A model generated the notes under the pieces. It had not been told where the DNA came from and ran no database searches. It saw nothing but the letters and a program-made list of their open reading frames with translations. 32,647 nucleotides of DNA, from positions 1-32,647 of the forward strand of contig JAITMV010000123.1 of NCBI GenBank assembly GCA_031277295.1. Direction: 5' to 3'. Positions 16,307 through 32,647 of this stretch are shown piece by piece. Each line of letters starts with the position of its first letter. Position 1 is the stretch's first letter. The position numbers were made by a program, and so were the translations under genes. The DNA is from Burkholderiaceae bacterium. GTDB taxonomy: Bacteria; Pseudomonadota; Gammaproteobacteria; Burkholderiales; Burkholderiaceae_C.

Positions 16307-16544
16307 TCCCCAAGCCCGCTCACACGCGGAACACCGGGCTAACTTAGCACAGCCTTCATCTGCCTCTGCACAAACTGAAACTCCCGGTACGAAGACCTAC
16401 ATCTTCGGGAGCAAAGTCAGGTTGATTTTGTATGCTGCATTTGCTTGCGATTTAATTAATTTGTTACAATTCAATGTGATATAAAAGTAAGTGCCTTCTG
16501 CACAGCAAGTGCGCAAAGTCCTAAGCAAGATAGGCCATGCGCCC

Positions 16545-16716
16545 TTAGAACGTGTTCACGATCCCGGCGCAGGCTTAGCGGGCGCGTGCTCAGGAAGCGC
16601 TACGGCGCAAGCAATCCTTGCCAATAACACAGGCCATTGGCTGCGGATTGCGCCTTGCAGCCCATCCCAATGCCGCATCCCGCATACCTCACGCCGAAAT
16701 CGCAAACACGTTCTTA
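16545..16716 (+). mobile_element. MITE-like element, copy 1 (element 16548-16713 plus 3-bp TTA duplication)
   Basis: TTA|GAACGTGTTCACGATCCCGGCG...CGCCGAAATCGCAAACACGTTC|TTA; near-identical copy at 18814-18986; no coding content. Confidence 0.85.
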
Positions 16717-16857
16717 GAGAAACTTTGAAAACCCATAGTCACCGTATGCATGATGATGCCTTCACACACACCCCCTCGCAAACACGTCCATGATGAAAAA
16801 TACAGGATGAAGACTTATCCCACTGCCCGCTACCCACGGCACAGTGCGCTCTAACAG

Positions 16858-16999
16858 GCGGCTGAAATACATCTTCGGAAGGGAAATTCTTGCCTCAAAG
16901 ATGATACCTTACCCCCCGACCTACACTGAAAAACGCTTGTAAGTCGTTCTATAAGGTCGTCTCTTTCACTCCAAGGTGGGAGAACAGTATTTCAGCAGC
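16858..16999. repeat. ~142-bp segment bounded by 13-bp inverted repeats (12/13 match)
   Basis: GCGGCTGAAATAC (16858-16870) and GTATTTCAGCAGC (16987-16999). Confidence 0.55.
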
Positions 17000-17007
17000 T
17001 TACCAAA

Positions 17008-17119
17008 GAATCTCTGATTAATTTCGTTCACCCTGTGGGCTTGTCGAAGAGCATCTCCAGGAAAATCAAGTGTACCGACAGAACTTCAGCCAGAACGGTA
17101 GTAAATTGTTCAGAGGTTC
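17008..17119. repeat. IS/MITE-terminus-like imperfect inverted repeat upstream of luxR
   Basis: GAATCTCTGATTAATT (17008-17023) ... AATTGTTCAGAGGTTC (17104-17119). Confidence 0.55.
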
Positions 17120-17187
17120 CCTGACAATCAGCCGTTGAGGGCAAATCAATCCGTTATTAGTTCTGGAGCACAGTATTTGGAGGAAAC

Positions 17188-17901
17188 ATGAGAAATTGGC
17201 AAGAAGATTTACTTCATATCGCGCACCATAATACGATGGATAAACATGATGTTTTTAAGCGCATTAAAATCGCCGCGACAGCACTTCAGTTTGATTATGT
17301 TGCATATGGCTTCGAGTCGCCCTACCCTTTTAGCAGACCCAAAATCACATTATTGAACAACTACCCTAGATCATGGCAAGAGAATTACAAAAAAGAAGGG
17401 TACATAAGAATTGATCCTACGGTTACTCATGGGCGTCGATCTCGAAATCCAATCATTTGGTCTGATCAACTTTTCATAAATGCTCAAAATTTTTGGGAAA
17501 ATGCAAGAGATCATGGGCTGAATGTGAGCTGGGCGCAATCCATATTAGATAATTTTGGCGGCAAAAGTATGATTACGCTCTCAAGATCTTATAAGTCATT
17601 GACCACTAAAGAACTCGAAGGCAATGAATTAAAAATGCGTTGGCTTGCTCAAGTCGCTCACTTCGCATTATCTAAGTTTTTCCAAATTGATTTAATTACA
17701 AAAGAGACACCCCTTTCCCGCCGGGAAGTAGAGGTATTGAAGTGGTCGGCCGACGGGAAGTCCGCTCAAGATATAGCAGATATTTTAAATCTATCCAAGA
17801 ATACAGTAGATTTTCATATTAAAAACTCTCTAGCCAAGCTCCAAGCTCCAAACAAAACCGCGGCAGTAATTAGGGCCGCACTGACAGGATTATTAAATTA
17901 A
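17188..17901 (+). CDS. LuxR-family acyl-homoserine-lactone-responsive transcriptional regulator
   Basis: 237 aa; autoinducer-binding-domain pattern (WQENYKKEGYIRIDPTVTHGRR...W) and C-terminal HTH LSRREVEVLKWSADGKSAQDIADILNLSKNTVDFHIKNSLAKLQAPNKTAAV; RBS-like GGAGGAAAC upstream of ATG. Confidence 0.93.
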   Translation: MRNWQEDLLHIAHHNTMDKHDVFKRIKIAATALQFDYVAYGFESPYPFSRPKITLLNNYPRSWQENYKKEGYIRIDPTVTHGRRSRNPIIWSDQLFINAQNFWENARDHGLNVSWAQSILDNFGGKSMITLSRSYKSLTTKELEGNELKMRWLAQVAHFALSKFFQIDLITKETPLSRREVEVLKWSADGKSAQDIADILNLSKNTVDFHIKNSLAKLQAPNKTAAVIRAALTGLLN

Positions 17902-17971
17902 ATCTGAATTTTCTATTTTATGCAGCCATCCCTGCAAAATTCATCTCAGTTTTCCATGTCGCTAGGGAAAC

Positions 17972-18049
17972 TCTGATTTATTCGGCAGCACCAATCGTAA
18001 GTCATTGATTTTTGATGGAGCAATAGTGTGGTTTTCGAATAAATCAGAG
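17972..18049. repeat. 14-bp perfect inverted repeat spanning 78 bp downstream of luxR
   Basis: CTCTGATTTATTCG (17972-17985) ... CGAATAAATCAGAG (18036-18049). Confidence 0.75.
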
Positions 18050-18330
18050 CCTCCCTGGCGCGCCACCCGCATCGCATGAAGCCGGTGCAGCCTCACCTGA
18101 TTGGCGCAGCCTCATCTTTCGTCATTCCCGCTCACCCTTGCCCTTTCGTCACTCCCACGAAGGCAGCAATGATAGGGAACTACGTGGCAATAACGATGGA
18201 AAAGTTGTACAACACGCGCGGCGAAGATACAGACCCAACTCAGTTTCACTTTAATTGCCCATAGCGTTCACGTGCCATCAGCATAGGGCATTGAAATAAA
18301 TTTTCAGAACTGACTCACAAGCTCGAAAAT

Positions 18331-18729
18331 TCAGAAAACTTTAATACCAATGATTGTCAAGCAAACTCCAGCAAAAGCTGTAAAAACCAGACAAAGTGTT
18401 GGAAGGAGTGTCAATAAAAACCCTAATCCTCGCCTTGAAGGATCACTGACATAAGAACGCCAATAAATTAGACGACCGACAAGATAAATAATTCCTAACC
18501 CTGCAATGAAGGCAGAAGGCCAGTATTTTGCTGAAAGAAATAAGGCAGGAAGAAAAGCCATAAGAAATTCTAATGTATTGATCTGTACGCGATATATGCG
18601 CTCAAATTCTTGATGCCCTGAAATTGCAGGCGCTTTGACGTCATAAATTCGACGCGCATTCGCTGTCAAAGCGCCAAACATAAGAAACTGAATTATAGCT
18701 ATGATCGCCACCAATTCCACGTAATACAT
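18331..18729 (-). CDS. MAPEG-family membrane protein
   Basis: 132 aa; NARRIYDVKAPAISGHQEFERIYRVQINTLEFLMAFLPALFLSAKYWP...GRLIYWRSYVSDPSRRGLGF. Confidence 0.88.
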   Translation of the reverse strand: MYYVELVAIIAIIQFLMFGALTANARRIYDVKAPAISGHQEFERIYRVQINTLEFLMAFLPALFLSAKYWPSAFIAGLGIIYLVGRLIYWRSYVSDPSRRGLGFLLTLLPTLCLVFTAFAGVCLTIIGIKVF

Positions 18730-18813
18730 ATCAATCCTTCCGGAAATTGTTTAACAAATGAAATATTAACAAACGCCTGGATCCGCGGCCCAAAGGATGG
18801 AGCTGTCTTGCCC

Positions 18814-18986
18814 TTAGAACGTGTTCACGATCCCGGCGCGGGCTTAGCGGGCGCGTTGCTCAGGAAGCGCTGCGGCGCAAGCAATCCTTGCCAATGACAC
18901 GGGCCATTGGCTGCGAATTGCGTCTTGCAAGCCCATCCCAATCCGCATCCCGCACATCTCACGCCGAGATCGTGAACACGTTCTTA
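18814..18986 (+). mobile_element. MITE-like element, copy 2 (element 18817-18983 plus TTA duplication)
   Basis: TTA|GAACGTGTTCACGATCCCGGCGCGGGCTTAGCGGGCGCG...GAGATCGTGAACACGTTC|TTA. Confidence 0.85.
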
Positions 18987-19134
18987 TAGTCTACAGCATA
19001 TGATACAGCTCACGGCCATCACATTCGTCCCCCCTGCGCTAAGCGGGAGTCCACGGGGAAAATTCCTGCCCCCACTTAAACGACCAACCAGAGCTTCCAG
19101 GCCCAGCCATTATACAGAAAACTTTCCCTCTAGC

Positions 19135-19689
19135 TCAAAAATTCAAATCGATGCTTAGTGCAACCAGGTTTTCTCGGCCGTATTTCTTTGGTATTCCAGC
19201 ACGGGATACACAAAATCTATTCATATGCAATAGGCGCTCTATCTCAACAGGCGATACAGTAACCAAAGTGCGCGCACCATGTTCCTTTGCAATTTGTGTC
19301 GTATACTGAAATAGATTTCGTGCATTCCCCGTTAAATTCTGCTCAGCAGGGGAAGGGATCGCATCGAAATCGAGTGCAGCGAATCGTGACAATTCCCATA
19401 TTTCAATACTATTTGGAAAATCACCTTTACCCCACAGCTCGTGAAATACTTTTTTTAAAAGATATGAATCAGTCGTTGGCAGCAACCTTGCGAATCCATT
19501 AATCCATCCGCGTTGACTTCTGGAAAATACATAGATGGCATTTGAATTATCAAATTCATCTGACTCTACATCCGCTGAAACACACATCGGCCAACCCAGG
19601 TGACCAACAAAAACCCTGTGTCTATAACGTCCGATCTCCTCCAATAAGTTCAATGGCAAGTCCTTACGCTTCCCAGCGGAATAAATCAT
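19135..19689 (-). CDS. LuxI-family acyl-homoserine-lactone synthase
   Basis: 184 aa; RYRHRVFVGHLGW, ESDEFDNSNAIYVF, GFARLLPTTDSYLL, EIWELSRFA motifs. Confidence 0.93.
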   Translation of the reverse strand: MIYSAGKRKDLPLNLLEEIGRYRHRVFVGHLGWPMCVSADVESDEFDNSNAIYVFSRSQRGWINGFARLLPTTDSYLLKKVFHELWGKGDFPNSIEIWELSRFAALDFDAIPSPAEQNLTGNARNLFQYTTQIAKEHGARTLVTVSPVEIERLLHMNRFCVSRAGIPKKYGRENLVALSIDLNF

Positions 19690-19923
19690 GCGCCTTCCTT
19701 ATCCTGAATCTACAACTTTACCAAAACATAAACAAATTCATCCCACAAATTCAATCTTTTTAAAACTTAAAAACTCATTTAAAATCAACAGGTTATGGTC
19801 GTTATTATAAATCTTCTTTGTGAACCGTAGATATTAACTTGCTAGTAAATTTCCCTCTTGAAATCACGAGTCCAGATGGTCGGCATTGGTTCCCTAATAA
19901 TAAAATAATTTTGACGGACACGC

Positions 19924-21285
19924 TCAGTCGTGGCTCGTCAGCAACCGGTTTATAGATTCTAAGTCAGCCGAATTCAGTGTGCCTGCAGTTTGTTTCAAAC
20001 GCAGCAGACCAACAATTGCGTCATACCGCGCTTTGGCTAGATCATGGCGCGTTTGATACAGTTGGCTTTGAGCGTTAAGCACATCAATGTTAAGCCGTAC
20101 GCCGGCTTGGTAGCCGACTTGCATAGTTTCCAGGGCACTTAAACTGGATTGTTCTGCTGTTTGCAAGGCCGTAACTTGGTTTAGACTGGATTGGACACCA
20201 AAAAAAGCAGATCGAATGGCTTGAGAGATGGTGCGCTCAGTATTGTTAAGGTCGTTTTGTGCCTTGGCTTGCAGCGCCTGGGTTTCGCGTACACGGTCTT
20301 CAACGGCAAAGCCGGAAAACAGTGGCCAATTAAGCATGATAGAAATGCCCGCATTATTAGCATGGTAGGGATCTCTAGGTGTGGTGAAAAATGCTGGATT
20401 GCCACGAGGATAACGCTGCAGGCCGACTGTGGCTTGCAAATCGACCGTGGGTAAATAACCGGTTTTGGCTTTTTTGATTTCCATGCCGGCAACGTCCAGT
20501 GTTATACGGTTTTGCAATATCGTGGGATGCTGTTTGACAGCGAACTCGATCCAGATATTTACATCATTCGGCTTAGGCACGGGCACGACGACAGGCTGTA
20601 TCAATGGGTGCGGCTTGCTATTGAGACGGCCGCTGATCTGGTCAAGTGCAAATTGCTTGACCAGCAGATCATTTTGAGCAGCAATTTCTTGCGCCACGAC
20701 CAGGTCAAAGCGTGCCTGAGCTTCGCGGCTGTCTGTGATGATGGCCGTGCCGCGTTCAAAGTTTTGTCGAGCTGATTTCAACTGCTCGGCGACCGCATTT
20801 TTGAGAGCGCGTACAGTACTCAGGGAATCGGCGGCACCAAGCACATCAAAATAGGCTTGCGACAGACGAACGATGAGATCCTGTTCAGCGGCAATCAGTT
20901 GAATTTGCGCTAATTTGACTTGTTTGCGGCTTTGTTCCCAACCGATACTGCTGGTAGGACGATACAGGGGCTGCGAGCCAATCAGAGCGCCACTGACCGA
21001 ATGGTGCCGAAATGAATTGGAGCCCGCGCCTGAAAAAGAAGAATCCAGAGCATTGACTTGCGCGCCGGCCTGCAAGCCGATCTGCGGCAGTAAAGCAGCG
21101 CGTGACTGACCGGCGCGCGCCTCGCTGGCTTGGAGTTGGTTAAATGCGGACTGGAAAAGAGCGTCGTAGCCGCGGGCGACCAAGTACAGATCTAGCAATG
21201 ACTGGGCTTGACAAGAAGCGACGCAGCACAACAGCCCCAGTATTAGTAGATTTTTATTTTTGAAAATCCTCATAACAGTATTCAA
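19924..21285 (-). CDS. TolC-family outer membrane efflux protein
   Basis: 453 aa; LLDLYLVARGYDALFQSAFNQLQASEARAGQSRAALLPQIGLQAG, C-terminal GYQAGVRLNIDVLNAQSQLYQTRHDLAKARYD. Confidence 0.93.
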   Translation of the reverse strand: MNTVMRIFKNKNLLILGLLCCVASCQAQSLLDLYLVARGYDALFQSAFNQLQASEARAGQSRAALLPQIGLQAGAQVNALDSSFSGAGSNSFRHHSVSGALIGSQPLYRPTSSIGWEQSRKQVKLAQIQLIAAEQDLIVRLSQAYFDVLGAADSLSTVRALKNAVAEQLKSARQNFERGTAIITDSREAQARFDLVVAQEIAAQNDLLVKQFALDQISGRLNSKPHPLIQPVVVPVPKPNDVNIWIEFAVKQHPTILQNRITLDVAGMEIKKAKTGYLPTVDLQATVGLQRYPRGNPAFFTTPRDPYHANNAGISIMLNWPLFSGFAVEDRVRETQALQAKAQNDLNNTERTISQAIRSAFFGVQSSLNQVTALQTAEQSSLSALETMQVGYQAGVRLNIDVLNAQSQLYQTRHDLAKARYDAIVGLLRLKQTAGTLNSADLESINRLLTSHD

Positions 21286-21301
21286 ATAAAATAGTGGCCT
21301 T

Positions 21302-22849
21302 TTAATTCGGCTCGGCTGTATTGGTTTGAGCGATTTTGGTGGAATCGATAAAAAGTACCAACAGCATGGGAAAGACGAAGAAGACCGCCATCAACACAAA
21401 GACATCCGACACACTCATCGTGAGTGCTTCACGCAAGCCAAGTCGTGAAGTAAGCATGAGGGTGACGCGAGCGATCATGTCGTCATCGGTCATGACACGA
21501 CCGAGCAAACTCGTCAACAACTCCGCTCGCTCTTGGACGATCATCGTCGCGGCCGAAAGTTTGTCAAACAAGCGCTCGCGGTGAAAGCTCAAGCGTTCGT
21601 AGAAAAGCTGTGAATTGATCACAGCCAGACCGATAGCGCCACCGAGGTTGCGCATCAGGTTGTAGATACCGCTGCCTCCCTTGAGGTGTTCGACAGGCAA
21701 AGCCCCCAAAGCCAAACCCGTGACCGGAATAATGCAAACCATGGTGGCAATGCCACGCAAAATTTGCGGCAACAAAAGCTGGCTTTTCCCCCAGTTAGCG
21801 TCGATGCGCACAAACATGATGCAACTGGCCATGAAGATAGCAAACCCGATCAGCAATAGCAGTTTGAAGTTCACTCGCTGCATCAGCGCCACCGTCAAAG
21901 GGGTGGCCACGATGTTTGCCAGGCCCACAACGAAAACAATGCCGCCAATCTGCTGGGCGCCAAGTCCACGCACACTACCTAAGAACACGGGTGTGAGATA
22001 AATCGACCCATATAGCCCTACGCCGACCGCAAAACTCAACACACAACCGATGGCAAAGTTGCGTTGCTTGAATGCACGCAGTTCGACCAATGGCTCGGGA
22101 TGATGGAGTGTTCGGAGCACGAACACTGCTCCGGCAAGTAGCGCAATAGGCGTCATCCATTGCAAAAGCGGGTCATCCAACCACTGTCGGCGTGGCCCTT
22201 CTTCCAAAGTGAATTGAATTCCGCCGAGAAACACGACGAGCAAACCGGCTGCCAATACATCGAAGCGCTTTAATAATCCAAAATCAGGTTTATCAATCCT
22301 CACGACACGCGGCACGATCAAGATAATAACGATGCCCGGCAACACGTTAATGAAGAAAAGCCACCGCCAGGACAGCGTCTCCGTGATATAGCCACCGATC
22401 GTGGGACCCAAAGCCGGCGCGAGCGTGGCCACCAGCCCAAGAATCGCGGGTACGCGCATTTGCGCTGCCCCCCGAAACATCACCATGCCCGCAGCGAAAA
22501 CAGTTGGAATCATGGCTCCGCCGAGAAATCCCTGTAGGGCGCGGAATACAACCATCGATTCCAGGCTCCAAGCCATGCCACAAGCAACGCTTGTCACGGT
22601 AAAGCCAATGGCCGATAGCGTGAAGAGCCAGCGTGTCGACAGCATTCTCGACAACCAGCCCGACAGCGGGATCATGATGACCTCGGCGATCAAGTAAGAA
22701 GTTTGCACCTGCGAGACCTCGTCAGCAGTCGCCGACAAACCGGCTTGGATCTCACGCAGCGAACTGGTAACGATCTGAATGTCCAGCGACGCCATGAACA
22801 TGCCCATGGCCATCACAATGAAGGCTACGGTGCTTTGGCCAGTGGACAT
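21302..22849 (-). CDS. DHA2-family (EmrB/QacA-type) MFS drug exporter
   Basis: ORF reaches 23212 but the plausible start is MSTGQSTVAFIVMAMGMFMASLDIQIVTSSL at 22849 (alternative GTG near 22939); ~14 hydrophobic segments; TMHST motif-C-like LVATLAPALGPTIGGYITETLSWRWLFFINVLPG. Confidence 0.9.
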   Translation of the reverse strand: MSTGQSTVAFIVMAMGMFMASLDIQIVTSSLREIQAGLSATADEVSQVQTSYLIAEVIMIPLSGWLSRMLSTRWLFTLSAIGFTVTSVACGMAWSLESMVVFRALQGFLGGAMIPTVFAAGMVMFRGAAQMRVPAILGLVATLAPALGPTIGGYITETLSWRWLFFINVLPGIVIILIVPRVVRIDKPDFGLLKRFDVLAAGLLVVFLGGIQFTLEEGPRRQWLDDPLLQWMTPIALLAGAVFVLRTLHHPEPLVELRAFKQRNFAIGCVLSFAVGVGLYGSIYLTPVFLGSVRGLGAQQIGGIVFVVGLANIVATPLTVALMQRVNFKLLLLIGFAIFMASCIMFVRIDANWGKSQLLLPQILRGIATMVCIIPVTGLALGALPVEHLKGGSGIYNLMRNLGGAIGLAVINSQLFYERLSFHRERLFDKLSAATMIVQERAELLTSLLGRVMTDDDMIARVTLMLTSRLGLREALTMSVSDVFVLMAVFFVFPMLLVLFIDSTKIAQTNTAEPN

Positions 22850-22955
22850 GACCACCTCGCCCCGAGATTCGCCAGCGGCAGGCTGAGTCTGAATCTCCGC
22901 AAACGAGTCGTCGCCAACATGATGGGCAGCGGAAGTCACGCCATCATCTCTGAAA

Positions 22956-24050
22956 TCATCTTTGGCCGCGCCCCAGGGATACCGCGCCACTGGGGCCGGC
23001 GACTGCCTTGTCCGCAGTGTTGGCGGCGACCGGTAGCGTGTCCACGCGCACGTTGACCGACATCCCCGAACGCAAGCGATCCAGCCCCTGCTGGGCTTCG
23101 TCGAGCACGATGCGCACAGGCACCCGCTGCACGATCTTGGTGAAGTTGCCCGTCGCATTCTCAGGAGGCAACAAGCTGAACTCGGCACCGGTAGCCGGTG
23201 CCATGCTCTCAATGTGTCCGCTCAAGCGCAGTTCAGGATAGGCGTCAACCTTCACGCTCACCGGCTGCTGCAATTTCAAGGAAGTCATTTGCGTCTCTTT
23301 GAAGTTTGCAACCACATACGCCTGACGCGCTGATACAAGCTTGAGCACTTGCGATCCGGCCCGCACGAGCTGTCCAATCTCCACCGTCTTGTCACCAACG
23401 ACACCATCGGATGGCGCTATCAAGGTGGCGTTTTTCAGGTCGATCTCAAGCAATTGCGTTTCAGCGCGGGCCTGCTCCAACTCGGCACGTTGTTGAGACG
23501 CTTGTGCGTCGAGTACTGCCAACTGCTTGTGTGCAGCATCCAGTTGGGCGCGCATACGGGATTCGGTGGAAACTGCCACGCGCATATTGAGCGTGCTGGC
23601 ATCAAACTGAGCGACCGAAACAACGCCCTGCTCGAACAAGCCTGAGTCACGTTGATGGTCCGATGCTGCCTTGGCCGCCTGCGCGTGCGCGGCCTCAAGT
23701 GCGTATCGCGCCTGATCAACTTCGGCCAGCCCCAGCAACTTTCGCTGCTCCATGGTTTTCAGCGCCGCCTCGCGGCTAACCAGCCTTGCGCCGGCCTGAG
23801 CCAGACGCACCTCGAAATCGGTCGGATCGATGCGCACAAGCACATCACCACTTTTGACCTTTTGGTTGTCCTTGACCTCAACAGCCACCACGTACCCGCC
23901 AACCCTGGGGCTGATTCCCACGCTGTCAATCTTGAGATAAGCGTTGTCAGTGCTGACGAAGCGGTTAGCCACAGCCCACGCATATACGGTGCCCACACCC
24001 ATGGCCGCAGCCAACGCAACCAAACCGATAAGCTTGTGCGATTTCTTCAT
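22956..24050 (-). CDS. HlyD/EmrA-family periplasmic adaptor
   Basis: 364 aa; one N-terminal TM, TDNAYLKIDSVGISPRVGGYVVAVEVKDNQKVKSGDVLVRID, LIAPSDGVVGDKTVEIGQLVRAGSQVL. Confidence 0.93.
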   Translation of the reverse strand: MKKSHKLIGLVALAAAMGVGTVYAWAVANRFVSTDNAYLKIDSVGISPRVGGYVVAVEVKDNQKVKSGDVLVRIDPTDFEVRLAQAGARLVSREAALKTMEQRKLLGLAEVDQARYALEAAHAQAAKAASDHQRDSGLFEQGVVSVAQFDASTLNMRVAVSTESRMRAQLDAAHKQLAVLDAQASQQRAELEQARAETQLLEIDLKNATLIAPSDGVVGDKTVEIGQLVRAGSQVLKLVSARQAYVVANFKETQMTSLKLQQPVSVKVDAYPELRLSGHIESMAPATGAEFSLLPPENATGNFTKIVQRVPVRIVLDEAQQGLDRLRSGMSVNVRVDTLPVAANTADKAVAGPSGAVSLGRGQR

Positions 24051-24084
24051 GCAAAAACGGGCTTCTTCCCACCATGCGCCAAGC

Positions 24085-24408
24085 TTAGCGCTCCAGAAGG
24101 GGAAACTTGTTTTGCACCTTAGCCCATTTTTCGGCCTCAGGCGCCACCGATTTTCTGCGCACGATCAGAGGCCAAGAGCGGGATAAAGATTCGTTGATTT
24201 CAATCCAGTGCAATTGATCTTCAGGTAAGTCTTTCGCTTCAACGATAGCCATAACAGGACACTCCGATACACATAAGCCGCAGTCGATGCACTCTTCGGG
24301 ATTGATTGCGAGAAAATTAGAACCTTCGTGGAAACATTCAGTGGGGCAAACGGCCACACAATCGGTGTACTTGCACTTAATGCACATTTCAGTCACAACG
24401 TGGGTCAC
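24085..24408 (-). CDS. 7Fe-type ferredoxin (FdxA-like)
   Basis: [14 protein letters not shown] and [12 protein letters not shown] cluster motifs; ORF extends to 24441, GTG start (V)[13 protein letters not shown] at 24408 proposed by analogy to FdxA N-termini. Confidence 0.88.
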
Positions 24409-24455
24409 AATAGCATCTCCGGTCGTTGTTTCACCAGGCAAGATAGAGCAACTAC

Positions 24456-24483
24456 CCAGAACCGGCCTTCAGGGCAGTTCTGG
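24456..24483. promoter_or_regulatory. Hairpin between the FabG-like and ferredoxin genes
   Basis: CCAGAAC-N14-GTTCTGG inverted repeat in the intergenic region; no clear T-tract on the minus strand. Confidence 0.4.
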
Positions 24484-24523
24484 ATCGCTGCTGAGTTCGA
24501 TCCACAATGCACCGTTAACGGGT

Positions 24524-25273
24524 TCAAGCGGTCATGCCGCCATCAACGACGATGGTCTGACCGGTGATGTAGGAGGCTCCGGCAGACAGCAAAAACTCGG
24601 CGGCGGCGCCGACGTCGTCCGCGCTTCCGATTCGGCGCAGCGGAATAGATTTGGCCATCGCTTGCTGCCGCGCGGCGGGCATTTGTTCGACCATCTCGGT
24701 AGCGATCAAACCGGGCGCGATGGCATTGACTCGAATATTGAAACGAGCAACCTCCGTCGAAAGCGCGCGCGTGAAGCCCAGTAACGCACTCTTCGTCGCC
24801 GAATAATTGGTCTGCCCACGATTGCCACGCAGCCCGGAGACGGAAGAAATCTGGATAACACAACCATCTCCAGACTCCAGCATCGGCGGCAGCAGACGAT
24901 GGGTCATGCGGTACACCGAGTTGATATTCGAGTCGATCACATCGAACCAACTTTGCGGCGGCATGTTGACCAAAATAGCGTCGTGCGTAATGCCGACATT
25001 GTTGATGAGCGCGTAGGGGCGACCATGCTGACCAAGGACTTTGGAGACAAAGGCGTCAACGTCTTCATTGCTGCGCGCATCGCAACGATAACCGTGCATT
25101 CTGCGGCCAACCGCATCAGCGTCCTTGACCATCGCTTGCGCGGCGTCTTCAGAGTTGGCGTAGGTAAAAACCATGTCGTAGCCGGCGTGTGACAACCGCT
25201 CGACAATGCCGCGGCCGATGCCGCGCGTACCCCCAGTGACCACCACAAGCTTTCGCTGTTGCTGAGAATTCAT
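24524..25273 (-). CDS. 3-oxoacyl-ACP reductase (FabG-like SDR)
   Basis: Start MNSQQQRKLVVVTGGTRGIGRG at 25273 overlaps the upstream FAD-protein stop by 4 nt; NNVGITHD, catalytic ISSVSG...YSATKS, C-terminal ITGQTIVVDGGMTA. Confidence 0.93.
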   Translation of the reverse strand: MNSQQQRKLVVVTGGTRGIGRGIVERLSHAGYDMVFTYANSEDAAQAMVKDADAVGRRMHGYRCDARSNEDVDAFVSKVLGQHGRPYALINNVGITHDAILVNMPPQSWFDVIDSNINSVYRMTHRLLPPMLESGDGCVIQISSVSGLRGNRGQTNYSATKSALLGFTRALSTEVARFNIRVNAIAPGLIATEMVEQMPAARQQAMAKSIPLRRIGSADDVGAAAEFLLSAGASYITGQTIVVDGGMTA

Positions 25274-26919
25274 CGTGTTTCCAGTTCCATGTGTTCGGTC
25301 TGATCTCCTGGAGCAAAAGCGCCAGTCCGTGCGCAAAGCCGGCTCTCGGGAGCCCACGACAATGCCTTGTGTTCGGCATAACCGAACGCAGCCTCATAGC
25401 TTGCCCCCGCCACCCAAGTACTCATGAAATACAGCCCCCTGACCGGGAAGTTGTGGTGAAAAATATGCGGATTGCGCGATGTCCCGACAAACGCGCCAAA
25501 ACCAGCTCCGTCAGAATTATTTGTATAGCGAATGTAGGTGCGAGGACTAGACACCTCTGTGTATTGCACATGTCCTCTAAAACCGGGAAAACGCTGATAT
25601 AGCCGCTCAAGCATCATCTCGGTAAACCGGCGCTTTTTCTTTTTGTATTCCAGAGTCCGGCGCTGAGGCCAGTGCTCCACCGAGTCGAGCAAATTGAAAA
25701 TCAGTACATGGCCATTATTCGGTTCAAGGGCATGATAGTTGGTGACCTCGACCGGTGAATGTTTCCAGTAGGCGAGTTCACACAGTAACGGATCAGCAGT
25801 GCGTTTGGCTTCCTCCCGCAAACGGTCTGCCTCGTCGTTGGGCAGGTCGATCAGAAAGGTTTCAGTGCAATCCAATCCGCACTCGGCAGGAGCCGTATCG
25901 GCCACGAGATACAGCGTTGTCGTTGACCAAGAAGACTGCAATTGGCGTAACTTTTCCTTTACTGTCTGTAGCGGCAACGTCTCGACCAGCAGCTCCTCGA
26001 CAACATATTTCGGCGCCGCGTTCACGAAAACCTGCCGGGCCGCGTAGAACTCTTTTGACGCGGTAACGCCAGCCACACGCATGTCGCAGTCAACTTCAAT
26101 ACGATCAACGGGCGTGTCCAATAGCACCTTGCCGCCCCCCCGCTCGATGCGGGCCACCAACGCATCCGATAGACGCTGCGAAGTACCGCGAACATAGGCA
26201 TTGCCGCAGTACAGCGTAGCGTAAATAACGTGCAGGTAGTAGAGATAACTCAGATCTTCTGGGTGCCCCCCCACGTAGCAGCCGGGCATGGAAATAATTT
26301 CACCGACTTCCCAGGACTTGAACATCTTGTGAAACGCATCTTTCATCGTGATGTTCTTGTAGTTCTTGTGGGCAAAGCGGATATCGCGGATCAGTGCACC
26401 GATAGGCTCGTTGTACGTGCCATTCATGATCTGGAACTGGAAGTACGAATTCTTGCCGTGCAATTCGACATCGGCGAACAACTGTTCAATGCCTTGGCGG
26501 TCATCAGGATAGAGTTCGCACAACGTCCGTTTAAGCCATACCGCATCGTTGGGCAACAACACGTTTTTATCGGGTAACGACGCCTGGAAATAGTGATTGG
26601 GATAGACAAGTTCCAACTCATCCATCAAACCCAACTCGTCGAAGATGCGACGGAGATTTCCAGCCCCGGCCATGCCGCTCAATTTGTGGAGGCTACAGTC
26701 AAAAACAGCGCTCTGTTTAGGTCTGCGAAAGGCACTGGCATACCCCCCAGGCACTGAATGCTTCTCGATCACCAACACGCGCAACCCTGGGTGGCGCATC
26801 GTGAGTTGAGCGGCAAATGCCAAACTTGTGAGACCAGCACCAACGCAAATTATGTCCCACGTGCTCGATATGTTCGACTTAAAAGGGGTCGAAAATCTTG
26901 TCACCATGAGATAACTCAC
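25270..26919 (-). CDS. CrtI/phytoene-desaturase-like FAD-dependent oxidoreductase
   Basis: 549 aa, GTG start overlapping the ACP stop; N-terminal dinucleotide fold DIICVGAGLTSLAFAAQL...VLVIEKHSVPGGYASAFRR, C-terminal NFPVRGLYFMSTWVAGASYEAAFGYAEHKAL. Confidence 0.88.
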   Translation of the reverse strand: MSYLMVTRFSTPFKSNISSTWDIICVGAGLTSLAFAAQLTMRHPGLRVLVIEKHSVPGGYASAFRRPKQSAVFDCSLHKLSGMAGAGNLRRIFDELGLMDELELVYPNHYFQASLPDKNVLLPNDAVWLKRTLCELYPDDRQGIEQLFADVELHGKNSYFQFQIMNGTYNEPIGALIRDIRFAHKNYKNITMKDAFHKMFKSWEVGEIISMPGCYVGGHPEDLSYLYYLHVIYATLYCGNAYVRGTSQRLSDALVARIERGGGKVLLDTPVDRIEVDCDMRVAGVTASKEFYAARQVFVNAAPKYVVEELLVETLPLQTVKEKLRQLQSSWSTTTLYLVADTAPAECGLDCTETFLIDLPNDEADRLREEAKRTADPLLCELAYWKHSPVEVTNYHALEPNNGHVLIFNLLDSVEHWPQRRTLEYKKKKRRFTEMMLERLYQRFPGFRGHVQYTEVSSPRTYIRYTNNSDGAGFGAFVGTSRNPHIFHHNFPVRGLYFMSTWVAGASYEAAFGYAEHKALSWAPESRLCARTGAFAPGDQTEHMELETR

Positions 26920-27185
26920 GGAGACACGGCGACGGATTCGGAACTCGCTTGCTCAGCGATATAGGTACAAAGCTGACCAACGTTGATGATCTTTCCCGAA
27001 GAAAAAAGCTCTGGCGAAAGATCGACGCCAAACCTTTTTTTCGCCTCAATCTGGGTCTGGACATAGTCTAGGCTGTCCAGCTCAAGCTCATCAAAAGTGG
27101 TTGCGTCGGTGATTTCAGCATCGAAATCTTTCACTTCTTCGATAATTTCTCGAATGAAATCAAGAACTTGCGAACGTGTCGTCAT
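26916..27185 (-). CDS. Acyl carrier protein
   Basis: 89 aa; phosphopantetheine-site motif FDELELDSLDYVQTQIEAKKRFGVDL. Confidence 0.92.
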   Translation of the reverse strand: MTTRSQVLDFIREIIEEVKDFDAEITDATTFDELELDSLDYVQTQIEAKKRFGVDLSPELFSSGKIINVGQLCTYIAEQASSESVAVSP

Positions 27186-27236
27186 ATCATTTACTCCTGG
27201 TTGGGGCGGGTTTGGAAACTTCCTAGAAAAACAATA

Positions 27237-28004
27237 TCAAGCAGGCACGCCAGCTTTGGCGAGCAAGCCGATTTCAATCACCATGGCAGGCGAGCCGTCA
27301 ACAAAAACGTCTAACTCGGCGACGCCTGATTCGCTACCCGGAGATGCGCTTTTGTCCTCGTTGCGAACCGAGTAACCCACATGAGGTATCCTGTCGACGT
27401 CACTGAACCGCGCCTTTAACTGCCGGGGAACACAAGAAACGCTATGACTGACCTGCACCGCAACGATGTCTGGCGGGATTTCCGACAACCGACCGAATCG
27501 CTGTTGCAGAAATTTGCCGAAAATTAACGCGTCGAGAAAAATCCAGTCGTCATGAACGAACCGGAACGATTCACAAAAGCGGGCGTGCTGTGCTTGAACA
27601 TAGGCCGCCTCCAACACATACGCGGGCGAAGCATTTGCCTGCTGTAATGGTGGTGTTTGGAGCGTTTCATGTACCCCTCGACCGTACTCACGGCTATCGC
27701 CTTGCAGCACAAAGCGCACTCCCTCGTTCTTTGGACGAATCGAGAGATCCAGCCGGCTGCTTTGCGGAATTGGGTTGCGAAACAACGCCTTGAATCGGCT
27801 CCAGCCATCGTCCGCCGAGGTAACCGCCGCGAGCGCACGCATTGTGGCCTGTTTGACATGCAGTAAGGCCAACATACCGTGAACGATGAGACGATCAGAG
27901 CCTGCCTTGGCAGCCCGCGCCAAATCGAAATGAATTGGATTGAAATCGCCCGAAAATTCGGCCCACTTCAGCACCGCGGCGGGCGTGGTCGCCTCATGGA
28001 TCAC
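27237..28004 (-). CDS. MaoC-like (hotdog) dehydratase
   Basis: 255 aa; hydratase-2-type motif FSGDFNPIHFDLARAAKAGSDRLIVHGML near the N-terminus; start overlaps the ketosynthase stop by 4 nt. Confidence 0.85.
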   Translation of the reverse strand: MIHEATTPAAVLKWAEFSGDFNPIHFDLARAAKAGSDRLIVHGMLALLHVKQATMRALAAVTSADDGWSRFKALFRNPIPQSSRLDLSIRPKNEGVRFVLQGDSREYGRGVHETLQTPPLQQANASPAYVLEAAYVQAQHARFCESFRFVHDDWIFLDALIFGKFLQQRFGRLSEIPPDIVAVQVSHSVSCVPRQLKARFSDVDRIPHVGYSVRNEDKSASPGSESGVAELDVFVDGSPAMVIEIGLLAKAGVPA

Positions 28005-29269
28005 GACAGGCTCCGATACAAGATAGCGCAGTTGGCGCCGCCAAAGCCGAAACTAAGATTCAGTACTGTGTTTACATCCGCACCACGAACATGCGCGTTG
28101 GGTGTGTAATTGAGGTCACACGCCAAGTCTGGATTGTTCAGATGAATCGTTGCCGGAATCATCGAGTCTTGCATGGCCTTTAGGCAAAAAATTGATTCGA
28201 TCGCGCCAGCAGCGCCGATCAGGTGGCCCGTGTATGACTTGGTACTCGAAATCGGCACCCGATAAGCGGCCTCTCCCAGCGCAAGTTTGATCGACTCGCT
28301 TTCGTTCAAGTCATTGAGCGGCGTGGATGTACCGTGGGCATTGATGTAGTCGATATCCTTGGCCGCGATGCCAGCCTGGTGCATTGCCGCCTCAATGGAT
28401 TTGACGCGCGCCAGCATATCGGCGGCCGGCGCTGTAATATCGTAGGCGTCGGAGTAATTGCCGTAACCTATGACTTCGCCGTAGATCTTGGCACCGCGCT
28501 TGACGGCGTGCTCATAGTCTTCGAGGCATAGCATCGCCGCGCCTTCGGACAAGATGAATCCGCTGCGATCCTTACTGAACGGACAGCAAGCCAACTCGAT
28601 CCGATGTTGCTCCTTGGACAGCGCCTGGATCACATCTATCGACCAAACCGTACTGTCGATCTTGATCGATTCGCTACCGCCAGTCAGCATCATCTTGGCG
28701 CGCCCCGAGCGAATGATTTCGTAAGCGTCACCAATGGCCATAGTGCCGGCGGCACAGGCGGAGATAGTGGTATTCTGGTAGCCGCGTGCATTCCAATTCA
28801 TTGAAATCGCCGCAGTGGCGATGTTGTTCATCGACATCACCGTAGAAAACGAGCTCGAAACACCACTGGATCTGTAATCGTCGTGGTTGAGCAACCCATC
28901 ATCGAAACCACCCCAGCCCGTGCCGACAATCGTGCCTCGTTCAAACGGGCTGTAGTAACGATCCAGATCGGCATCCGGCCCAAACGCCATGCTCAGCGCT
29001 TCCTTGGCGGCCACCATCGCATTCTTGGCAAACGCCGGAAGCATCTTTAAAATAGGCTTGGGGATACCTTTGTAGCGCGTTTTATCGGCTTCTAGCAGAC
29101 CGAAGAATTTGGCCTTGATACTCTTATCTTCAAAAGCCCGAACACGATAGCCAACCTTATATTCGCTAATGGCGTTCCAAATGTCGTGACTGGTTTCACC
29201 CAGCGAACACAAAGCACCGTAACCCGTTATCACCACTCGGGAACCATTCTGTTTTCTCATCATTTTCAT
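28001..29269 (-). CDS. Beta-ketoacyl-ACP synthase II-like (FabF-type)
   Basis: 422 aa; intact Cys-His-His: TTISACAAGT, INAHGTSTPLND, KSYTGHLIGAAGAIE. Confidence 0.94.
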   Translation of the reverse strand: MKMMRKQNGSRVVITGYGALCSLGETSHDIWNAISEYKVGYRVRAFEDKSIKAKFFGLLEADKTRYKGIPKPILKMLPAFAKNAMVAAKEALSMAFGPDADLDRYYSPFERGTIVGTGWGGFDDGLLNHDDYRSSGVSSSFSTVMSMNNIATAAISMNWNARGYQNTTISACAAGTMAIGDAYEIIRSGRAKMMLTGGSESIKIDSTVWSIDVIQALSKEQHRIELACCPFSKDRSGFILSEGAAMLCLEDYEHAVKRGAKIYGEVIGYGNYSDAYDITAPAADMLARVKSIEAAMHQAGIAAKDIDYINAHGTSTPLNDLNESESIKLALGEAAYRVPISSTKSYTGHLIGAAGAIESIFCLKAMQDSMIPATIHLNNPDLACDLNYTPNAHVRGADVNTVLNLSFGFGGANCAILYRSLS

Positions 29270-29503
29270 CGGGGGTTAATTTAACTGTGCATAGTACAAA
29301 TATAGAATACCAACCCGGCGCCTTCGACACGCAACCCAGCTGGTGAATACTATGGGTAAAATTTCAGCATACGTACACTTGGTGCATCTTCATCTGAATC
29401 CGCGAACTCAAGAAAGAAAGGTCTCACCCGAAAGGTGATGCGTTTTCCCTCTTCAAATCACGGATTCAGGTCTTCAGAAAGAACACCTCCTGCACACACA
29501 AAT

Positions 29504-29884
29504 TCAGGAAATCCATCCCATGCTTGCCGCAACGATGAATGCGGAAAGGAGCGCCGTGACTGGAAACGGAGACTTTGGTAATGCGACAGTGCCCATCACT
29601 GAAACCCCGAACAGGTACAGACCAATGATCTGCAGTGACGCCATGTCACCATCGGTGACCGCGGTTACCGCCAAATGGCCGCTCATAAGCAGCAAAGGGC
29701 CAAAAGCGGTAAACCAAAAAGCTAAACGCCGCTCAGGAATACCAGCAAACTTTCCAATAATCCCTTCACGTAGCGCTGCGACGATTGGCTTGCGGAACAC
29801 CACCAATCCAAGCAAGCAGTGAACCACACCGAGCACAACTAAAATCCATGCCACAAGACTCAACATGGCGCCTCTCGCATCCAT
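29504..29884 (-). CDS. Small four-helix membrane protein, DUF6463-like
   Basis: 126 aa, about four hydrophobic segments; LVAWILVVLGVVHCLLGLVVFRKPIVAALREGIIG...PERRLAFWFTAFGPLLL resembles DUF6463 from memory; 3-nt gap from upstream gene. Confidence 0.7.
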   Translation of the reverse strand: MDARGAMLSLVAWILVVLGVVHCLLGLVVFRKPIVAALREGIIGKFAGIPERRLAFWFTAFGPLLLMSGHLAVTAVTDGDMASLQIIGLYLFGVSVMGTVALPKSPFPVTALLSAFIVAASMGWIS

Positions 29885-29887
29885 TGA

Positions 29888-30793
29888 TCAAATAACATCA
29901 CATTCAACCTCAGCAAGCCATTTATTCATTTCCTTAAATTTTATCTTATTGATTTTCTGATTATGTTCTGAATTACGAACTTCAGCGATAGCTTCTCTAT
30001 CATCGGGGCCAATAGGAAAATTGAACGACGTAAACTGACCGATAAGTCGGTTATATGTGATTTCGTTATACACTCCCTCCACAATTGGCCGAAACGTTGC
30101 ACTGAACTTTATCCGATCATCACTCGAAGCTTGTCCGATGTAGCTCTCGACCAGCCGCTTTCCAAAGGCAATGTGACGCACCTCTTCCAGATGATGTTCA
30201 TAGAACATTTTCTTGGTCAGCGGCTCACACCCTTCATACTGTGTACACATTAGTGCGTTCAGCTCGGCTGCCCATTCGACCACCAAGGTAAACATGACGC
30301 CATAAATTGGAGGAATGCTGCTGATATCCTCAAGAAAACTTTTAGAGGGGGATTCCGCATCCTGAATGAACGGTAGATTGCCGAGCTTCATGAAACGACG
30401 GAACATCATCGTGTGAACTATTTCCTCTTTCGAGAAAATCAGCATATAATCGTATATTTCTTTGAAAAGTGCGTTGCGGTAGCGGTTAATAAAACCAACA
30501 TACAACACTGGAAGAAATCGCTCCAGCTTGATGAAGGCAGTAATGTCTCGGCCCGTTTCAAGCCACATCAGTTCATGACGCTGTTCCGGCGTGAGCATAT
30601 CCCAGTATTTTGTGCCGTATATCCAACAGTGCTCTGCGCGCTTCGGCGCCATACTCTTCTCAATTCCTTTACTCCAAGGAAGAACACTATCGACCTCCAT
30701 TGAGCTGCGATTGGAACTATTAACTAATGTTCCAATGAACTTTCCGATGGCGGTAGAGAACTGAAAGGGGACTGTTTGCTGCGCTACTTGCAT
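29888..30793 (-). CDS. AurF-like non-heme diiron oxygenase, copy 2
   Basis: 301 aa; putative carboxylate/His ligands in LETGRD, KEEIVHTMMFRR, VEWAAELNA, HHLEEVRHIAFG. Confidence 0.85.
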   Translation of the reverse strand: MQVAQQTVPFQFSTAIGKFIGTLVNSSNRSSMEVDSVLPWSKGIEKSMAPKRAEHCWIYGTKYWDMLTPEQRHELMWLETGRDITAFIKLERFLPVLYVGFINRYRNALFKEIYDYMLIFSKEEIVHTMMFRRFMKLGNLPFIQDAESPSKSFLEDISSIPPIYGVMFTLVVEWAAELNALMCTQYEGCEPLTKKMFYEHHLEEVRHIAFGKRLVESYIGQASSDDRIKFSATFRPIVEGVYNEITYNRLIGQFTSFNFPIGPDDREAIAEVRNSEHNQKINKIKFKEMNKWLAEVECDVI

Positions 30794-30834
30794 ATGATTT
30801 ACCTCCTATTAACCAAAATATTTTTAGCCGTGCC

Positions 30835-31794
30835 CTAATTGATAGTGCTGGACACAGGCTCCATCCCCAAAGGAACGATTCGCTCCGGCATCAGGTCAAG
30901 CCGCGTGAGCCAGTCGATGATCTCCTTAAACCGCACGGCGTTCAGGCGGGTATTATTCTCAGACGCGCGCACGGCACGAATAGCTGCGAGGTCCGTTTTA
31001 TGGATCGGGAACTCGAAGGAAGTCAGATCACTGATCTGCTCGGTGTATTTAAACTCTTCGAGGACATCGCCAATCGCCGGTTTGAACAGATTGCGGATTG
31101 GCGTCAACTCCTCAACACTCTTGCTCGTAAAGTAGTCTTCGCACAACCGACGTCCAAAGGTGATGTGCCGCACCTCGTCAATGTGATGCGCCCAGAACAT
31201 CTGTTTGGTGATCGGCTCAATACCATCGACCTGAGTGCAATGCACGGCATTGAGTTCCGCCGCCCACTCAAGCACCAATGTCCACATCACGCCCACAATC
31301 GGCGGCAAGCTTCTGGGCGAATGCTCCAACGTGTGCATGACATGCGCGAATCCGGGGCGTTGCGGAATAACGAAATTAGGCAAATTCGCCTTCTCCAAAT
31401 ATCGTCTGAACATCTGCGTGTGGACGATCTCCTCTTTAGCGAAGATCATCATGTATTCCTCAATTTCAGGCGCAAGCGCCGCGCCGAACGCCGTAAGATA
31501 GCTCATATACATGGGCGGGAGGAACTGCTCCAACTGAATAAAAAACGACACGTCACGGGCGTTTTCCAGCCACAGAACCTCCAAACGCTGCGCCTCGGTG
31601 AGTTGCTCCCAGTATTTGGTGCCGTATATCCAGGAAGTACTGGCAAGCTTGGGTGGGGCGGATCGATCAATCATTTCATCCCACGGCAATACGTCACCCA
31701 ACAACATAGGCGATCTATGCGAGGTATTGATCATCGAATTGATTACGTGCAGGTTTTCCTGCGACGCAAAGAGCGGCGCGTTCAATGCGGCCAT
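30835..31794 (-). CDS. AurF-like non-heme diiron oxygenase, copy 1
   Basis: ORF reaches 31971 but the likely start is MAALNAPLFASQENLH at 31794 with AAGGAGT upstream. Ligand motifs LENARD, KEEIVHTQMFRR, LEWAAELNA, HHIDEVRHITFG; clearly paralogous to copy 2 (shared WIYGTKYW). Confidence 0.86.
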   Translation of the reverse strand: MAALNAPLFASQENLHVINSMINTSHRSPMLLGDVLPWDEMIDRSAPPKLASTSWIYGTKYWEQLTEAQRLEVLWLENARDVSFFIQLEQFLPPMYMSYLTAFGAALAPEIEEYMMIFAKEEIVHTQMFRRYLEKANLPNFVIPQRPGFAHVMHTLEHSPRSLPPIVGVMWTLVLEWAAELNAVHCTQVDGIEPITKQMFWAHHIDEVRHITFGRRLCEDYFTSKSVEELTPIRNLFKPAIGDVLEEFKYTEQISDLTSFEFPIHKTDLAAIRAVRASENNTRLNAVRFKEIIDWLTRLDLMPERIVPLGMEPVSSTIN

Positions 31795-31921
31795 GAGCAC
31801 TCCTTGATAAGTGAATAAAACAACAACCAGAACCAGCCTTCTTAACCGGGGGGCGCGGCCTACCGCTGCCGACCAGAGTGGGGGTTTCAAACCAAACCCA
31901 GTTTTACGATGAGCACGCATC

Positions 31922-31945
31922 GCAACAATGCTTGCGCATCGTTGC
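31922..31945. promoter_or_regulatory. 24-bp imperfect palindrome upstream of the diiron-oxygenase operon
   Basis: GCAACAATGC-TTGC-GCATCGTTGC, about 130 nt upstream of the proposed ATG at 31794. Confidence 0.4.
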
Positions 31946-31947
31946 TC

Positions 31948-31959
31948 ACTATCGATAGT
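31948..31959. promoter_or_regulatory. 12-bp perfect palindrome ACTATCGATAGT upstream of the diiron-oxygenase operon
   Basis: Read directly from the sequence; next to the 31922-31945 palindrome. Confidence 0.35.
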
Positions 31960-32052
31960 TTGCGCTAACAATAGCTTCGAGAGGCGCTCCTATGCTCCTA
32001 TGCATATCGCATCAAGATGACTTATCTTGAACGAAAGAGAGCGTTCACACAA

Positions 32053-32188
32053 CTACCAAGACTGGTAGGTCTGGCCAAGCAGCATGGCGCCAACCAATTG
32101 GGTGATCAGGACATGGTTGGGGAAGATGCCCGCCACGTTGGTGCGCCACTTGATTTTCTGCGTTGCGCCGCTGCGTAAGGCCGACGCC
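32053..32188 (-). pseudogene. C-terminal relic of an IS256-family (mutator-type) transposase
   Basis: Minus-strand translation SALRSGATQKIKWRTNVAGIFPNHVLITQLVGAMLLGQTYQSW* matches the typical IS256-family C-terminus; not in the supplied ORF list because it has no start. Confidence 0.75.
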
Positions 32189-32647
32189 TTAGAACGTGTT
32201 CAAAATCTTCTGAGCAGCACCGCCAAGAATGCGAGATGGACAAACTGCAAGCTGGTGCCCGAGCAGTCGCTCGCAGTTTTTCCATAGCCTGCGGTTCTTC
32301 TCGAGCCAGACAAAGCTGCGCTCCACCACCCAACGCTTAGGCATCACCTTGAATGTGTGCAGTTCGCTGCGTTTGGCAATCTGCCCCGTCACATGTTCGC
32401 CCAGGATGGCCTTGACGCCTTGCTTAAACGGCTGGCCCACGTAACCACTGTCGCACAGCAAACTCTGCACCTGCGTCAGTGTCAGCTTGCAACGCTCAAG
32501 CGCTTGCAACGCCCCTTTGCGGTCAGTGACCTCCGCCGTACTCACTGCCACCGCATGCGGCAAACCCTGTGTGTCCACCGCTATGTGACGCTTGATCCCA
32601 GAGACCTTCTTGCCCGCGTCATAGCCCTTGAGCTTGGCCGTATCGGT
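32189..32647 (-). mobile_element. IS5-family (IS1031-like) insertion sequence with transposase, truncated by the window end
   Basis: Transposase reads into the window edge: TDTAKLKGYDAGKKVSGIKRHIAVDTQGLPHAVAV...SELHTFKVMPKRWVVERSFVWLEKNRRLWKNCERLL; terminus GAACGTGTTCAAAATCTTC flanked by TTA. Confidence 0.85.

Follow-up and report, generated by a model that had tools for sequence, protein, structure and literature searches.

A tandem pair of AurF-type diiron oxygenases in a fatty acid synthase-like gene cluster of a Burkholderiaceae bacterium

The best-known reaction of the AurF-type diiron site is the oxidation of nitrogen, and the 3-His/4-carboxylate ligand set of this site is described as largely unique to N-oxygenases (PMC12101540). 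In the CylC branch of the family, the reaction is the chlorination of acyl-ACP. The tandem proteins NocN and NocO are distant relatives of AurF, and the substrate of NocO is an ACP-tethered dodecanoyl chain (PMC5333925, PMC12101540). A QExxH motif is conserved in the CylC relatives (PMC12101540), whose gene clusters carry one or two copies and have been reported almost exclusively from cyanobacteria (PMC8406957). LitN, which is also related to AurF, may introduce a hydroxyl group at the amide of an N-acyl threonine (PMC10616846). The addition of double bonds is the role proposed for phytoene-dehydrogenase-like enzymes encoded in FASII clusters (PMC2649909).

We analyzed a stretch of 32,647 nucleotides from a Burkholderiaceae bacterium (contig JAITMV010000123.1), hereafter called the window, in which two adjacent genes, AurF1 and AurF2, lie in a fatty-acid-like cluster together with a CrtD-like FAD enzyme. 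The family to which they belong, PF11583, is already known; the branch, the pairing, and the gene context constitute a variant of it.

AurF1 and AurF2 and their predicted iron sites

AurF1 (30835..31794, minus strand, 319 aa) heads the gene run and is separated by 41 bases from AurF2 (29888..30793, minus strand, 301 aa), with which it forms one apparent transcription unit. The start codon of AurF1 is the ATG at 31794, preceded by AAGGAG; a 378-aa frame that begins with TTG and reaches 31971 is only an upstream extension of this gene. AurF2 has a strong ribosome-binding site (AGGAGG), and both genes are full-length frames with good ribosome-binding sites. A profile search, proposed in a preliminary description of this DNA, assigned both proteins to PF11583 with 60.4 bits (AurF1) and 55.2 bits (AurF2) against a curated cut-off of 29.6 bits, and no other Pfam family was matched by either. 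The NCBIfam R2lox model gave 19.6 bits for AurF1, against a cut-off of 194, and no match for AurF2. Because the two proteins share 47% identity across 283 aa (E 4e-97), the earlier statement that they differ widely outside their shared blocks was overstated.

Single-sequence searches of the PDB with AurF1 and AurF2 did not match AurF directly. A profile built from 17 relatives and run against the PDB recovered AurF (3chh, E 3e-6), CmlI (5hyg), a VlmB homologue, and R2lox. The ligands were then placed by two alignments, an HMM alignment to PDB 3chh and a MAFFT L-INS-i alignment. In both, the seven AurF ligands (E101, E136, H139, E196, H223, E227, and H230) are identical in the two copies, where they correspond to E89, E122, H125, E176, H203, E207, and H210 of AurF1 and to E91, E124, H127, E173, H200, E204, and H207 of AurF2. 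The aligned set of three His and four Glu is thus complete in each protein, as had been predicted from the motifs, and neither copy lacks a ligand. One assignment has to be corrected: the residue equivalent to AurF E101 is the Glu of the I[KQ]LE block, not that of the LE.xRD motif named previously. A third relative, the single AurF copy (locus L008) of genome G037, which belongs to another family in the same order, also keeps all seven ligands. If the ligand sites changed at the average rate, the chance that seven of seven given sites are identical at a mean identity of 0.47 would be approximately 0.005.

The second-sphere residues D135 and D226 of AurF correspond to E121 and D206 in AurF1 and to E123 and E203 in AurF2. 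Arg302 of AurF, which we take to be the residue that binds the substrate carboxylate, aligns with A286 in AurF1 and K283 in AurF2 in a weakly aligned region of the L-INS-i alignment, and this position varies in other family members too. The QExxH signature of the halogenases is EExxH in both copies (KEEIVH). The HxxDExxH motif, which AurF itself also has, is fitted by HHIDEVRH in AurF1, whereas HHLEEVRH in AurF2 has Glu in place of Asp. AlphaFold models of the two sequences are helical and of low confidence (pLDDT 53.4 and 48.6); a Foldseek search with the first of these low-confidence models listed ferritins, CmlI, R2lox, and AurF near the top, none of them below an E value of 0.29. Based on the conservation of the ligands, both proteins are predicted to bind iron and appear to be catalytically competent, separately maintained diiron oxygenases.

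A GC-poor island with acyl-chain, export, and quorum-sensing genes

The GC content is 0.61–0.68 over the first 1–16 kb of the window and 0.40–0.59 from approximately 16.5 kb to its end. This GC-poor island (16500–32647) holds the entire cluster and is missing from the sampled congeners; as its composition indicates, the cluster is horizontally acquired. The contig ends with the window, inside an IS5-type transposase (IS at 32189–32647) whose coding region stops 394 bases upstream of AurF1. Therefore, upstream genes for loading, release, or amine supply may be missing.

The gene order on the minus strand is AurF1, AurF2, DUF6463, KS, MaoC, ACP, CrtD-like enzyme, FabG, FdxA, EmrA, EmrB, TolC-type protein, LuxI, and MAPEG. 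The DUF6463 gene (29504..29884, PF20064, 71.6 bits), which encodes a small membrane protein, begins 4 bases past the stop codon of AurF2. It is followed by a FabF-like beta-ketoacyl synthase (28001..29269, PF00109/PF02801), additional to three other matches found in an own-genome search (best 39%), and a MaoC-like hydroxyacyl dehydratase (27237..28004, PF01575) with an intact GDFNPIHFD motif. An acyl carrier protein (26916..27185, PF00550, LDSLDY) comes next. The CrtD/CrtI-like FAD oxidoreductase (25270..26919, PF13450/PF01593) scores best with TIGR02733 (89 bits, under the cut-off of that model), and no match to it was found at 1e-30 among 60 relatives. The FabG-like ketoacyl-ACP reductase (24524..25273, PF13561/TIGR01830) starts with MNSQQQ. 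These KS, MaoC, ACP, and FabG genes bear out the FAS-like setting with a carrier protein that had been recognized earlier. No adenylation, NRPS, thioesterase, aminotransferase, or arylamine gene was recognized in the part of the island that lies on the truncated contig, and the window contains no fatty acyl-AMP ligase.

The FdxA-type ferredoxin (24085..24441, NF045490, 145 bits against a cut-off of 135) is the third copy in the genome; the other two are 55% and 48% identical to it. It is a probable electron donor. Genes for an EmrA-type periplasmic adaptor (22956..24050, TIGR00998), an EmrB-type DHA2 MFS exporter (21302..22849, start MSTGQS, TIGR00711, 385 bits against a cut-off of 230), and a TolC-type outer membrane efflux protein (19924..21285, PF02321, 180 bits) follow, all on the minus strand.

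The end of the cluster opposite AurF1 carries a LuxI-type acyl-homoserine-lactone synthase (19135..19689, PF00765, 67.6 bits), located behind the TolC-type gene on the same strand, and a LuxR-type autoinducer-binding regulator on the plus strand (17188..17901, PF03472 and PF00196). Between them lies a MAPEG-family small membrane protein (18331–18729, minus strand). The presence of LuxI and LuxR suggests that the cluster is probably under quorum-sensing control, with a possible positive feedback of the two proteins on it. A scan before AurF1 found no convincing lux box (best 10/16). A perfect 12-base palindrome, ACTATCGATAGT, occurs at 31948–31959, approximately 155 bases before the start codon of AurF1; because it occurs only once in the window, it gives no evidence of a regulon. 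Two candidate parallels were set aside. The paper on butuanimide, a quorum-sensing-regulated product (PMC13151354), contains no diiron or oxygenase term, and the product of the afc cluster is an N-acyl-tetrapeptide of nonribosomal origin (PMC12186527).

Age, rarity, and relatives of the pair

Maximum-likelihood analysis leaves AurF1, AurF2, and L008 in an unresolved trichotomy, whose terminal branches measure 0.66, 0.78, and 0.54. The GC3 values of AurF1 and AurF2 are 0.68 and 0.49. The two genes are not recent duplicates of each other; they either stem from an ancient duplication or arrived independently. This divergence, together with the kept ligands, leaves a fresh, decaying tandem copy unsupported. 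The preliminary description had likewise preferred two intact copies to a decaying duplicate, and the complete frames and good ribosome-binding sites agree with that preference.

Beyond its own genome, the pair has no match in 24 congeners. Matches below 1e-12 came from a single genome within the order (G037, 46%) and from another within the class (G430, 31%). Three of the 399 other members of the family have matches at 26–27% identity, which lie in different gene contexts. In a plasmid search, only Photobacterium sp. GJ3 passes 1e-5, with AurF2. The pair therefore belongs to a rare, uncharacterized branch of the AurF family. Two further loci were noted in passing. In the same genome as the window, a 390-aa diiron-like protein with weak AurF and R2 matches is followed by a BenC-type ferredoxin reductase (L003, 1054–3259, G000:C255), and in a genome of the window's own family, a 26% AurF relative is located approximately 1.5 kb from a protein that was judged by eye to be AfsA-like (L036, 8801–12259).

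G037, G430, and Photobacterium each have a single copy of their AurF relative. A common cluster is found on the plasmid of Photobacterium sp. GJ3 (L007, 9186–23556, NZ_CP073579) and in G430, which represents another family (L024, 2293–16835). It contains flavodoxin, AMP-ligase, KSIII-like genes, ACP, a CrtD-like FAD enzyme, the AurF relative, SCP2, FabG, KS, and FabZ, with identities to the window of 26–30% for AurF, 31–32% for the FAD enzyme, 31–33% for KS, and 44–47% for FabG. The Photobacterium cluster ends with a DUF3995 membrane protein, which is perhaps a counterpart of the DUF6463 protein of the window. On a Bacillaceae plasmid, the gene for a related FAD enzyme lies in a KS/ACP/SDR/KSIII/FabZ cluster in which no diiron oxygenase is annotated. 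In G037, the nearest AurF relative (46%) lies between a FadD-type long-chain fatty acyl-CoA ligase and an enoyl-CoA hydratase, and in Gordonia, an AurF relative is followed by a FAD oxidoreductase, an SDR, and a ferredoxin-NADP reductase. We found no description of the cluster shared by GJ3 and G430 in the literature, no described cluster of the window's make-up in the open-licence literature, and no published, experimentally tested substrate for any member of the AurF1/AurF2 subfamily.

Proposed reaction and comparison with known systems

Based on their location in the fatty-acid-like cluster, AurF1 and AurF2 probably oxidize the carrier-bound chain of a secreted compound, acting in turn on an acyl or polyene chain held by the ACP. 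KS, FabG, MaoC, and ACP would build this chain on the cluster's own carrier, and the CrtD-like FAD enzyme may desaturate or isomerize it. The island FdxA would pass electrons to the diiron sites, which would activate O2 and oxidize the ACP-bound chain, either at two positions or by two reactions in succession; export of the product would fall to EmrAB and the TolC-type protein. As a whole, this explanation, in which each of two diiron oxygenases serves one position or one step, has in our estimate a probability of about 0.5. An acyl-ACP substrate, as opposed to an arylamine, had been suggested at the outset. It is favored by the FAS-like genes, the ACP, and the lack of a recognized arylamine-making gene in the window, and it is from this context that we infer the substrate. 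The neighborhoods of the relatives also support the acyl reading, because those of GJ3 and G430 adjoin ACP, CrtD-like, FabG, and KS genes and that of G037 adjoins an acyl-CoA ligase. We tentatively propose, at somewhat less than even odds, that the pair represents an uncharacterized AurF subfamily, in which paired 3-His/4-carboxylate enzymes, under quorum-sensing control, would oxidize C–H or C=C bonds, without halogenation, in a polyene that a stand-alone FAS-like set with a CrtD-like oxidase makes on the ACP.

The main rival is the oxygenation of an amine or amide nitrogen, with one or both proteins being true N-oxygenases like AurF, CmlI, and LitN and with the nitrogen supplied by genes off the contig or by general metabolism. 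Such a reaction is possible because the ligand set is of the N-oxygenase type and the same as in AurF, because LitN is thought to use a lipid amide, and because the contig is truncated at the IS. However, the cluster contains no recognized gene for an amine, for amino-acid activation, or for an arylamine, the weakly aligned position of Arg302 is Lys or Ala, and independent relatives adjoin acyl-chain genes; we consider this reading unlikely. Ferritin-like oxygenases of the AurF kind are commonly dimers, and the two adjacent genes in one apparent transcription unit might encode an obligate heterodimer, with both sites or one site catalytic, that performs one reaction rather than two. Both successive oxidations and a heterodimer had been put forward at the outset. 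We consider an obligate heterodimer unlikely: both copies keep the seven ligands, which would be dispensable in a partner with only a structural role, and the three relatives named above do without a second copy. The combination of tandem AurF-like genes, ACP, and acyl genes resembles the nocN/nocO and CylC clusters (PMC5333925, PMC8406957) and would suit CylC/NocO-type dimetal halogenases acting on acyl-ACP. We rejected this assignment as very improbable, since the invariant Gln of QExxH is Glu in AurF1 and AurF2; the window also lacks the acyl-AMP ligase, and reports of CylC types come almost entirely from cyanobacteria (PMC8406957).

A paired, non-halogenase AurF branch associated with acyl-ACP genes would offer a test of whether this site can also oxidize carbon and of which second-sphere residues determine the type of reaction. 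The cluster itself marks a probable exported compound under quorum-sensing control. If the proteins are ordinary N-oxygenases, the pair is one more rare member of PF11583.

Compared with the p-aminobenzoate N-oxygenase AurF (3chh/2jcd) and with CmlI (5hyg), the window pair is alike in its PF11583 score and its seven ligands, and it shares with AurF the acidic character of the second-sphere positions D135 and D226. It differs from AurF in the absence of Arg302, in its FAS-like neighborhood, in being present as two copies, and in having no direct single-sequence PDB match; the arylamine supply that the AurF function implies was not recognized among the genes of the truncated contig. LitN of the lipothrenin cluster is also an AurF-like enzyme of a lipid-derived pathway, but it has been proposed to act on nitrogen in an acylated amino acid, and no amino-acid gene is present in the cluster of the window. 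NocN/NocO and the CylC halogenases share the distant relationship to AurF, the tandem arrangement, and the ACP in the cluster, and differ in the QExxH motif and the acyl-AMP ligase. R2lox is a ferritin-like di-metal enzyme, as the window pair is predicted to be, with a weak profile match, whereas its 2-His/4-carboxylate set lacks the third His of the window pair. The clusters of Photobacterium sp. GJ3 and G430, despite a single AurF copy of approximately 30% identity and extra AMP-ligase, KSIII, SCP2, FabZ, and flavodoxin genes, resemble the window in combining an AurF relative with ACP, a CrtD-like FAD enzyme, FabG, and a FabF-type KS.
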